From the NCBI GenBank assembly GCA_021776115.1, contig JAJFGN010000042.1:79000-142999 (forward strand): a DNA stretch of 64,000 nt, in the 5' to 3' direction. The stretch is from Kiloniellaceae bacterium (GTDB taxonomy: Bacteria; Pseudomonadota; Alphaproteobacteria; Kiloniellales; J153). The notes below the pieces were generated by a model. It ran no database searches. It worked only from the letters and a program-made list of their open reading frames with translations, and was not told the DNA's origin. A program made the translations under genes and the position numbers. This document shows, in pieces, positions 2 to 30,618 of the stretch (position 1 is the first letter of the stretch; every line of letters starts with the position of its first letter).

Positions 2-1414
2 ATCCTCGAATACCTTGCGGTCCAGCAGCGCATGGGCAAGGTCAAGGGTCCGATTCTGTGTCTGGTCGGGCCACCCGGCGTAGGTAAAACCTCGCTCGGC
101 AAATCCATCGCGCGGGCGACCGGGCGCAATTTCGTGCGCATGAGCCTGGGTGGGGTCCGCGACGAGGCGGAGGTGCGCGGTCACCGGCGAACCTATATTG
201 GCTCCATGCCCGGCAAGGTCGTCCAGGGTATGAAGAAGGCCAAGACCTCGAACCCGCTATTTCTGCTCGACGAGATCGACAAGCTGGGCGCCGATTGGCG
301 CGGCGATCCGTCGTCGGCGCTGCTCGAGGTTCTCGACCCGGAGCAGAACAGCACCTTCAACGACCACTACCTGGAAGTCGACTACGATCTGTCGGATGTC
401 ATGTTCGTGACCACGGCGAATACCTTGCGGATGCCACAACCCTTGCTCGACCGCATGGAGGTCATCCGTATCCCCGGCTATACCGAGGATGAAAAAGTCC
501 AGATCGCGCGGCGCCACTTGATGAGCAAGCTGATGAAGCAGCATGGTCTGAAGGACGAGGAGTGGTCGATCTCCGAGCAGGCCTTGCGCGACTTGATTCA
601 ACTTTATACCCGCGAGGCCGGAGTGCGGAATCTTGAGCGCGAGATCGCGGGACTGATGCGCAAGGCGGTAAAGGAAATCGCGATCAAGAAATGCGAGAAG
701 GTGCTTGTTAATCGGCGCAACCTGAAAAACTATGCCGGGATCGAGCGCTTCCGGCGCAGCGAGACGGAGCTTGAGGATTTGATTGGCGTGGCCACCGGCC
801 TAGCCTGGACCGAGGTCGGCGGTGAGTTGCTCTCGATCGAGACCGTGACGGTCCCCGGCAAGGGCAAGGTCACCTCGACCGGCAAGCTCGGCGACGTTAT
901 GAAGGAGTCGATCCAGGCGGCGGAATCCTACGTCAAGAGCCGTGCTATCGAGTTCGGAATCAATTCGGCCGACTTTGAAAAGAAAGACATCCACGTTCAC
1001 GTGCCGGAAGGCGCGACGCCAAAGGACGGGCCTTCCGCCGGTATCGCAATGGTTACCGCCATCGTGTCCACTTTGACCGGCATACCGGTGCGCTGCGACG
1101 TCGCCATGACCGGCGAGGTAACCTTGCGTGGCCGTGTCTTACCGATTGGTGGCCTGAAAGAGAAGCTGCTTGCGGCGCTGCGCGCGGGGATCAAGACCGT
1201 CATCATTCCCAAAGAGAATGAAAAAGATCTGGCGGACATCCCCGACAACGTCAAGCGTGCGATGGAAATCGTACCCGTGAGCCTGGTTGAGGAGGTTCTG
1301 CACATCGCGCTCGTTTCGCCGCTCACACAAATGGATTGGAGCGACGGCAGCGAAGTTGAAGCGTCGCCGAAGGCGCCGGAAGGCCAAGGGCGCAGCGGAC
1401 TCCTGACGCATTGA
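2..1414 (+). CDS. lon: ATP-dependent protease Lon, 3' part
   Basis: Cytoplasmic AAA+ serine protease that unfolds and degrades damaged and regulatory proteins. The gene is cut by the window edge: the frame is open from base 2, giving 470 visible residues, and the N-terminal substrate-binding domain lies outside. Visible are Walker A (GPPGVGKT), Walker B (LFLLDEID), the sensor region and the C-terminal protease domain. The catalytic Ser sits in PKDGPSAG (codon 1034-1036) and the catalytic Lys in GGLKEK (codon 1157-1159), so the Ser-Lys dyad is intact. A terminator hairpin follows and then hupB, which is the usual lon-hupB order in Proteobacteria. Confidence 0.97.
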
Positions 1415-24202: not shown

Positions 24203-24884
24203 CGAGGGCCCGGCCCAAGCGGTCTTAAGGCTGGACAACATCGTCAAGACCTTCCGTCAAGGCGAGCGGCCTCTGCACATCCTGAACGGCATTTCGGCCG
24301 AAGTCCGCGCCGGTGAGTTGGTTGGCCTGGTCGGCCCCTCGGGCGCCGGAAAATCGACGCTCTTGCATATCGCCGGGTTGCTGGAGCGTGCCGATTCCGG
24401 GGATGTCGTTATCGAGGGGCAGGTGGCGTCCCAACTCGACGACGGTGCGCGCACGGCCCTGCGCCGGGGGACCATCGGCTTCGTCTATCAGTATCATCAT
24501 CTCTTGCCCGAGTTTTCGGCTCAGGAAAACATCGCGCTGCCGCAGATGATCGCCGGCGCGCGAAAAGCCGAGGCCAATGCACGCGCGCTGGACCTGTTAA
24601 GCCAAGTCGGCTTGGCCGAGCGGGCGAACCATCGCCCGGCGCGCCTGTCAGGCGGCGAGCAACAAAGGGTCGCGATTGCCAGAGGCTTGGCCAACCGGCC
24701 GGCGATCCTTCTAGCCGACGAGCCAACTGGAAATCTCGATCCGCACACGGCCGAAGGCGTGTTCGATGTCTTGATCGACCTGGTCAAGAATTCCGGTCTC
24801 GCCGGCCTAATCGCGACCCACAACCCGGCCTTGGCCGGACGCATGGACCGGGTCCTGCACCTGGAGGATGGCGGTGTAAATTAG
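24195..24884 (+). CDS. lolD: Lipoprotein-releasing ABC transporter ATPase LolD
   Basis: Cytoplasmic ATPase (229 residues) that powers the neighbouring LolC/E permease. Walker [11 protein letters not shown]-loop [15 protein letters not shown] signature [16 protein letters not shown], Walker [13 protein letters not shown] and switch His (ATHN) are all present. It overlaps the permease gene, so the two are translationally coupled. Confidence 0.95.
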
Positions 24885-24989
24885 GCCTGCGGGTTGTAAT
24901 TGCGTTGACACGCCGCTGCGCTATGCTGGGTATTGGCTGGGGCGCGTTTTGGGGGATTCGTGCCTTGGCCGCTGTAAAACAATAAAAGA

Positions 24990-25040
24990 GGTGCGGGCGC
25001 CTTAAACAGACCTGCACCCGTCATCAAAGGCCTTGGGGAG
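24990..25040 (+). promoter_or_regulatory. Predicted H-type pseudoknot in the leader of the homocysteine S-methyltransferase gene
   Basis: Stem 1 is GGTGCGGG (24990-24997) with CCTGCACC (25011-25018), eight pairs including one G-U. Five bases of its loop, GCCTT (24999-25003), are complementary to AAGGC (25027-25031) just downstream, giving an H-type pseudoknot. The Shine-Dalgarno GGGGAG (25035-25040) starts four nt after stem 2. The layout resembles small translational riboswitches of the SAM-II class, but the A-rich core I remember for SAM-II is not evident. No covariation has been tested. Confidence 0.45.
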
Positions 25041-25045
25041 ACAGC

Positions 25046-25978
25046 GTGTCTAAGCTCGACGAGCGCCTTGCGAATGGCGAGGTGATCATAACCGACGGCG
25101 CCATGGGCACCGAGTTGCAGCGCCGTGGCGTTCCCATGGATAAAGTCGCCTGGAGCGCGGCCGCGATCGCGAGCCACCCGGACGTCATTCGGGATATCCA
25201 TGAAGACTACATTCGGGCTGGAGCCGAGGTGACGATCGCCAACACCTTTGGCGCCGCGCGCCATGTCTTGGCTCAGGCGGCTTTAGGCGAGCGTGTGGTT
25301 GAATTGAACCGCCGCGCCGTTGAATTGGCAAAGGAAGCGCGCGATCGAGCGGCAGGCGGCCGCGAGGTCTTGATCGCCGGGTCGATATCGAGCTTCCTGC
25401 CGGAAAACGCCAACGACAAACACATCATGCCCGATGTCGCGCTCGCCAGCTACCGGGAGCAAGCGGAGGTGTTTGCCGAGGCCGGGGCGGACCTGATTGC
25501 CTTGGAAATGATGATGGACGTGGCTTACACGGTCTATGCGCTCGAAGCGGCTTCGGCCACCGGCTTGCCGGTCTGGGTTGGCTTTTCCTGTCGCTTGGCC
25601 GCGGACGGCGAAACGGTTCTATTTTTCCGCAAAGATGTTGATACGCCGTTCGCGGACGCGGTCGACAAGGTCATGGCGGTCGGCGGTTCGGTCGCGGGGA
25701 TTATGCACAGCGATGTCGCGGTAACGGGGCCAGCCCTCGAGGCCTTGCGGGCACACTGGCCGGGCCCGGTGGCCGCCTACCCGCACAGCGGCCGCTTTAT
25801 CATGCCCGAATGGCAGTTCGTGGATATCATATCGCCCGAAGATTACCTTGCTGAGGCGCGGAAGTGGGTCGAGATGGGCGTGCAGATCGTGGGTGGGTGT
25901 TGCGGCATAGGCCCCGATCACATCAGGCTTTTGGCGGAGCAACTACCCAAGCGCTTGGCCGAGTCACCCGCCGCGTAA
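25046..25978 (+). CDS. Homocysteine S-methyltransferase family protein
   Basis: TIM-barrel methyltransferase (310 residues) of the family that moves a methyl group from betaine, S-methylmethionine or methylcobalamin to homocysteine. The N-terminal DGAMGTELQRRG and the C-terminal zinc motif GGCCG (Cys285, Cys286) are present. The third zinc Cys of the family, expected in a GxNC block near residue 222, is replaced by GIMHSDV (His221-Ser222). Starts at GTG 25046 with GGGGAG 5 nt upstream. The methyl donor cannot be deduced; a role in methionine synthesis or betaine use is likely. Confidence 0.85.
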   Translation: MSKLDERLANGEVIITDGAMGTELQRRGVPMDKVAWSAAAIASHPDVIRDIHEDYIRAGAEVTIANTFGAARHVLAQAALGERVVELNRRAVELAKEARDRAAGGREVLIAGSISSFLPENANDKHIMPDVALASYREQAEVFAEAGADLIALEMMMDVAYTVYALEAASATGLPVWVGFSCRLAADGETVLFFRKDVDTPFADAVDKVMAVGGSVAGIMHSDVAVTGPALEALRAHWPGPVAAYPHSGRFIMPEWQFVDIISPEDYLAEARKWVEMGVQIVGGCCGIGPDHIRLLAEQLPKRLAESPAA

Positions 25979-29507: not shown

Positions 29508-29709
29508 GATTTAGCCGGTTGGGCTAGACCTTCTGGGGGCCGAATTCGGCGGTATTTTGCTTGCAAATGGAGGCGTCCAGGGGTACACCCCGGCGCACTC
29601 AATATCACACGCGGGCGCGCGGCAATCGGGGGAGACATCCCCGGAGGTCGCTCCGGTGTCCGGATAACGGATGCATCGCCTGCGGCGGCACAACCGGAAA
29701 AGAGAGATC
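29508..29709 (+). other. dnaE-rpsB intergenic region, likely rpsB leader
   Basis: Contains a 12-bp palindrome GCCGAATTCGGC (29539-29550) followed by a short T-run, which could be a weak terminator for dnaE, and a perfect 6-bp hairpin CCGGAG (29641-29646) / CTCCGG (29651-29656) in the likely rpsB leader. Ribosomal protein operons often have autoregulatory leaders; I cannot match this to a known one. I could not place a clear promoter. Confidence 0.4.
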
Positions 29710-30618
29710 ATGGCCCTTCCTGAATTCACGATGCGCCAGCTCCTGGAAGCTGGCGTCCACTTCGGACATACGACGCGCCGCTGGAACCCGCAGATGGCGT
29801 CCTTCATCTTTGGCAAGCGCAACGGCGTCCATATCTTGGACCTCGAGCAGACGGTACCGATGCTGCATCAAGCCTTGGTTTTCGTCCGCGGCGTGGTCGC
29901 GGGCGGCGGACGGGTCCTGTTTGTCGGCACCAAGCGTCAGGCTAGCGAAAAGATCGCTGAGTCCGCCAAACGCTGCGCCCAGCATTATGTCAACCACCGC
30001 TGGCTGGGCGGGATGCTGACCAACTGGAAGACCATCTCGCTGTCGATCCGACGCTTGAAAGAGCTGGACACTCAACTCGGGGGCGAGGTCGAGGGCTTGA
30101 CCAAGAAGGAGCTGCTCAATCTGACGCGTGAGCGGGACAAGCTAGAGCGCGCCTTGGGCGGGATTAAGGAGATGGGCGGCCTGCCCGATGTATTGTTCGT
30201 GGTCGACACGAATAAGGAACATATCGCCATTGACGAGGCGAAAGTCCTGGGCATTCCCGTTGTGGCCGTTGTCGATTCGAACTCGAACCCCACCCGTATC
30301 GACTATCCCATCCCCGGCAACGACGACGCTTTGCGCGCAATTGGGATGTATTGCGAGCTTGTGTCCGACGCGGTGCTCGATGGAATTCAGGCCGAGCTGA
30401 TTGCTACGGGGGGAGATCGCGGCGAGGCAGAGGAAGCGCCGGTCGAGGCCCTTCCCACGACGGTGCCTGACGCCGTTCCCGCAACGATGCCCGACGCCGC
30501 TCCTACAACGGTGCCGGAAGCCGCTCCCACAACGGAGCCTAAAGCAGCTGCCGAGGCGGCGCCCGAAGCTGAACTCGCGATCAAGGCGGGCAGCGAGGAG
30601 ACGACGACCCCAGCCTAA
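29710..30618 (+). CDS. rpsB: 30S ribosomal protein S2
   Basis: Ribosomal protein S2 (302 residues), which joins the 30S subunit late. The core runs to about residue 240 with family signatures ([48 protein letters not shown]). The C-terminal tail is an Ala/Pro/Thr/Glu-rich extension in which an 8-residue unit (24 bp) is repeated four times at 30457-30552. Tails of this kind occur in alphaproteobacterial S2 but the repeat is striking. The ATG at 29710 is preceded by GAGAG. Followed by tsf, as usual. Confidence 0.97.
30457..30552 (+). repeat. Four 24-bp tandem repeats in the rpsB 3' end
   Basis: Four consecutive 24-bp units (30457, 30481, 30505, 30529) encode [24 protein letters not shown] and TTEPKAAA, residues 250-281 of S2. 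The units are imperfect but in register, consistent with past tandem duplication. Confidence 0.8.

Follow-up and report, generated by a model that had tools for sequence, protein, structure and literature searches.

In the window, by which we mean the whole 64-kb stretch of DNA from a Kiloniellaceae bacterium that was analysed, an intergenic gap of 161 nt follows a lolD-like ABC transporter gene, which stops at 24884, and leads up to the GTG start codon of a gene for a 310-amino-acid protein (Table 1). A domain match places this protein in the homocysteine S-methyltransferase family (PF02574). Its matches to NCBIfam equivalog models are all under the cut-off, and its closest solved structures are methionine synthase, MmuM-type and betaine-homocysteine methyltransferases. 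The same genome encodes two further relatives of the methyltransferase, one of which lies within a 1200-amino-acid frame that fits MetH. By our reading, the next gene downstream is dnaE. After dnaE, at 29606-29710 of the window (+ strand), there is an rpsB motif RNA (RF01815, 47.1 bits); a dnaE-rpsB placement of this motif is likewise listed for Pelagibacter (PMC2704228).

Just before the methyltransferase gene, two pairings can be read directly from the sequence, and both are exactly as a preliminary description of this DNA had claimed. P1 has 8 base pairs, including one G-U pair, and P2 has five Watson-Crick pairs. The Shine-Dalgarno sequence lies three nucleotides past P2 and just upstream of the homocysteine S-methyltransferase gene.

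Table 1. Features of the leader and its gene, leaders with the same layout, and SAM-II elements elsewhere in the same genome. Plain coordinates are positions in the window.
Feature	Position	Strand	Remarks
Promoter-like pair TTGCGT (24900-24905) / 16-nt spacer / TATGCT (24922-24927)	24900..24927	+	conservation only
5' hairpin A	24935..24970	+	predicted fold; 12-bp stem 24935-24946/24959-24970 with several G-U pairs, loop TTTTGGGGGATT
A-rich linker between the two hairpins	24971..24989	+	read from sequence
P1 5' strand GGTGCGGG	24990..24997	+	pairs with 25011-25018
Proposed P2 5' strand GCCTT	24999..25003	+	pairs in window; relatives without compensatory change
P1 3' strand CCTGCACC	25011..25018	+	pairs with 24990-24997
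Proposed P2 3' strand AAGGC	25027..25031	+	duplex energy -5.1 kcal/mol in window
Shine-Dalgarno GGGGAG	25035..25040	+	GGGGA invariant in 4/4 leaders
Homocysteine S-methyltransferase family gene (PF02574)	25046..25978	+	310 aa, GTG start
Leader L032	G002:C31		same layout
Leader L033	G001:C68		same layout
Leader L034	G002:C35		second gene, 81% identical, same assembly as L032
SAM-II element L141	G000:C44:36273-36350	-	RF00521 match
SAM-II element L142	G000:C4:35720-35797	+	upstream of OsmC-like gene (named from translation)
SAM-II element L143	G000:C72:6950-7024	+	directly before cysG-like gene (named from translation)

The preliminary description had raised the possibility of a SAM-II type sensor and had suggested a search with the SAM-II, SAM/SAH and SAM-V covariance models. 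We searched the region 24700-25200 with all 4227 Rfam families, at E up to 10. SAM-II (RF00521), SAM-V (RF01826), SAM/SAH (RF01727), and the other riboswitch families gave no match there, so the proposed assignment to SAM-II fails; the three matches at this threshold are to other families and are at chance level. As a positive control, the RF00521 model does detect SAM-II in this genome, at three other loci that score 28.7-36.1 bits. A single one scores above the Rfam gathering score, and the two that are under it still keep most of the core. The three elements carry the core motifs GATTTGA, GCTTGC, and GCTAAAG, in slightly altered form in one element. By reading, these motifs are absent from 24885-25045, which agrees with the earlier remark that a SAM-II core was not obvious. 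Among 60 ortholog loci, an Rfam scan gave no riboswitch match at the gathering score. For SAM/SAH, there was no match in 58 related genomes, and the control genomes gave no match either. The genus does use SAM-II, and the position of the pseudoknot and the function of the gene fit in outline, but with no match at E of 10 and no core motifs, it is extremely unlikely that our search overlooked a SAM-II, SAM-V, or SAM/SAH riboswitch. As a separate observation, a match to PYLIS_3 (the pyrrolysine insertion sequence of mttB, RF02510, 44.8 bits) lies at 237-335 (+) of L101, at most about 1.3 kb away from a relative of the methyltransferase gene.

We looked for similar leaders in 58 related genomes and in the GTDB contig collection. 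Just three more leaders have the same layout (L032, L033, and L034), and all of them are from the same Kiloniellaceae genus. The gene behind L034 may be paralogous to the one behind L032, or it may come from a contaminant. In that assembly, each copy of the methyltransferase gene has the tail of a lolD-like gene upstream of it; either the region was duplicated or the bin is mixed. We compared the four leaders, three of which are closely related, in a trimmed alignment. P1, a GGCGYC block, AGGG (AAGG in the window), and GGGGA are common to all four. The GGCGYC block covers the inner end of the 5' strand of P1 and the start of the loop. Conservation of the leader compared to four-fold sites was 0.74 vs. 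0.59 for L032, 0.63 vs. 0.54 for L033, and 0.47 vs. 0.47 for L034. The distance to the start codon is not conserved in L034, whose likely start codon comes a few nucleotides earlier, immediately after GGGGA; in that leader, the Shine-Dalgarno sequence may instead be AGGG.

In the sister genus (L035 and L036), the leader is absent: the methyltransferase gene is almost directly behind lolD in L035 and behind unrelated sequence in L036. The regulation of this gene therefore probably differs between neighbouring genera. We also built a covariance model (R1) from the four leaders and ran it on the 58 relatives, on 61 genomes of the order, and on 385 genomes sampled from the class. Beyond the four leaders, it gave weak matches only (best 26.1 bits, E = 0.007), and none of these were convincing given their sequences and downstream frames. 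Known riboswitch classes do not show such a distribution, limited to a single gene in a single genus.

TATGCT is invariant in the four leaders, and the upstream block of the promoter-like pair is largely kept in three of them. A scan with the sigma-70 consensus gave no site over threshold, so it is conservation that points to a promoter here. Hairpin A is strong in the window and in L032 (z = -3.65 and -3.47 relative to shuffles), moderate in L034 (z = -1.73), and no better than shuffles in L033 (z = +0.88). The A-rich linker of the window has an A/T-rich counterpart, in the same position, in each of L032, L033, and L034. The fold of the window's whole leader is similar to that of shuffles (z = -1.23). 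We rejected an open frame of 20 codons (24923-24985) as a leader peptide: its ATG is inside the putative -10 box, and the frame shrinks to seven codons in L033 and stays open further in L034.

Judged by its chance rate, P1 is unremarkable by itself. Stems of this class arose in 70 of 5000 shuffles, and there are about 0.1 of them per 66 nt of the window. What raises P1 above chance is that it is retained in the relatives. It is present in all four leaders, with one mismatch in L033, and 93.5% of its cells in the four-leader alignment are paired, vs. 26-56% with the partner strand moved out of register. Double (compensatory) changes affect two pairs, in L034 only, which is the most diverged leader; a perfect 7-bp stem at the matching place in L034 arose in just 4 of 5000 shuffles. 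In each of the four leaders, the P1 segment folds better than shuffles do, with z between -2.2 and -3.8. In the part of the window's leader that is near the ribosome-binding site, the predicted fold favours P1, with pair probabilities above 0.9. If the letters of the 3' strand are permuted, 28 of 500 permutations match the covariation score of P1, which is not extreme, as expected with only four sequences. We found no intrinsic terminator in the leader and no run of T past P1.

An inverted repeat such as 24990-25018 might instead be a DNA operator that is bound by a transcription regulator of methionine genes, and it does lie downstream of the promoter-like site. But the arms of the repeat in L034 change in sequence and stay complementary, so an RNA helix fits better than a DNA site that is read by a protein. 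Also, the repeat is more than 60 bp beyond the putative -10 box, and R1 did not find a second copy in the window's own genome. We consider an operator very unlikely.

The relatives do not lend P2 the same support. In the relatives, P2 decays to weak pairing that is rich in G-U (duplex energies of 0.2, -2.5, and -1.3 kcal/mol, vs. -5.1 kcal/mol in the window). With G-U pairs allowed, 18 of the 20 P2 cells (90%) are paired, vs. 30-60% with the partner slid, but P2 reaches 90% because G-U pairs are counted. The permutation control was flat, as 500 of 500 shuffles equalled the observed percentage. Since sliding the partner lowers the pairing, P2 is unsupported by these four sequences rather than disproved. 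The preliminary description had held that its proposal would fall if the leaders of close relatives lacked compensatory changes in both stems. P1 has such changes, at two pairs in L034, and P2 has no double changes across the four leaders, which counts against P2. In other words, both pairings of the H-type pseudoknot are present in the window, but P2 does not covary in the relatives. P2 may form in the window's genome; as a conserved feature it is unsupported.

As a chance test, we counted pseudoknots with 8 bp, of which at most one was G-U, plus 5 Watson-Crick base pairs. When the 66-nt leader was shuffled 4000 times with its dinucleotides kept, a pseudoknot of this quality came up once; the 64-kb window has nine, both strands counted. 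Given these nine in a GC-rich window, the presence of the pseudoknot is only modest evidence: it is uncommon but not decisive. The preliminary description had mentioned chance in GC-rich DNA as an explanation. P2, and perhaps P1, would then be chance complementarity, the likeness among the leaders would reflect their kinship, and a purine-rich ribosome-binding site would pair with any pyrimidine-rich loop. The nine pseudoknots, the background rate of P1-class stems, the flat control for P2, and the ordinary fold of the window's whole leader all point this way. Against this, P1 persists in the most diverged leader, where two of its pairs have changed on both sides, and its segment folds better than shuffles do in four of four. 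This explanation is possible, but it is not the one that we prefer.

Alternatively, the leader might be a riboswitch of a new class, in which P1 and P2 would fold around a metabolite (SAM, SAH, homocysteine, or methionine) and P2, beside the Shine-Dalgarno sequence, would block the ribosome. In the window, the H-type geometry is in the right place; the gene belongs to the methionine cycle; P2 pairs better in register than when slid; and there is a precedent in Pelagibacter, where pseudoknots of the SAM-V and SAM-II/SAM-V kinds lie in front of mmuM and bhmt genes (PMC2704228). But P2 has no double changes and is weak in all of the relatives, the loops of the four leaders have no extended conserved core, and the leader is seen in one genus and with one gene family only. 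Such a riboswitch is unlikely.

A different pairing is predicted in two of the relatives. The lowest-energy fold computed for L032 and for L033 has the 3' strand of P1 paired to the G-rich region of the Shine-Dalgarno sequence; with P1 formed, the best fold is just 0.4 kcal/mol (L032) or 1.0 kcal/mol (L033) worse. In the window and in L034, P1 is ahead by several kcal/mol and the alternative fold is weak. Because P1 is dominant in these two leaders, a switch between two folds is not conserved. Furthermore, a C-rich strand beside a G-rich ribosome-binding site pairs readily, so the competing fold is suggestive rather than shown.

Our preferred reading, which we give a probability of about 50%, is that the leader is a genus-restricted structured 5' UTR whose hairpin near the ribosome-binding site tunes the initiation of translation of the homocysteine S-methyltransferase gene. 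Because the hairpin is kept in three close relatives, the leader is probably a real control element. Transcription would probably start just past 24927. The resulting leader, about 110 nt long, would carry a hairpin at its 5' end, followed by a single-stranded A-rich linker and by P1. P1 would occupy the C-rich strand at 25011-25018, which otherwise can pair with the Shine-Dalgarno region (as predicted in two relatives), and the balance of the two folds would affect how open the start site is, and presumably translation. Of the regulatory RNA that had been proposed, a conserved structured leader with a hairpin near the ribosome-binding site is supported, but evidence for a ligand was not found and the leader is not a SAM-II member.

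If the hairpin controls translation, then a genus that has SAM-II also places a different, locally evolved RNA before another methionine-cycle gene. This would be a small example of how a leader RNA originates, as one ortholog in the sister genus is placed directly after lolD and lacks the leader. It is distinctly unlikely that the leader represents a new and very small class of riboswitch, confined to one Kiloniellaceae genus, that responds to a methionine-cycle metabolite via the P1/P2 pseudoknot or via a switch between P1 and a sequestered Shine-Dalgarno sequence. The discovery of a ligand would make the leader a new riboswitch class, but that is not where the present evidence points.

The leader can be compared to three known systems. 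Like SAM-II (RF00521, SAM_alpha), it has the layout of a short H-type pseudoknot before a sulfur-metabolism gene in an alphaproteobacterium, but it differs in lacking a match to the model and the core motifs, and the conservation of its P2 is unsupported. SAM-V (RF01826) is reported as a compact pseudoknot in front of mmuM and bhmt in Pelagibacter (PMC2704228), which are genes of the kind that follows our leader. SAM-V has many of SAM-II's ligand-contacting bases in common (PMC2704228), whereas our leader has no match to SAM-V at E of 10 and no SAM-II core motifs. The third comparison is to leaders with competing folds and a hairpin near the ribosome-binding site. Although the alternative fold is weak in the window and in L034, our leader resembles these in having a hairpin just upstream of the Shine-Dalgarno sequence and, in two relatives, a rival pairing to it.
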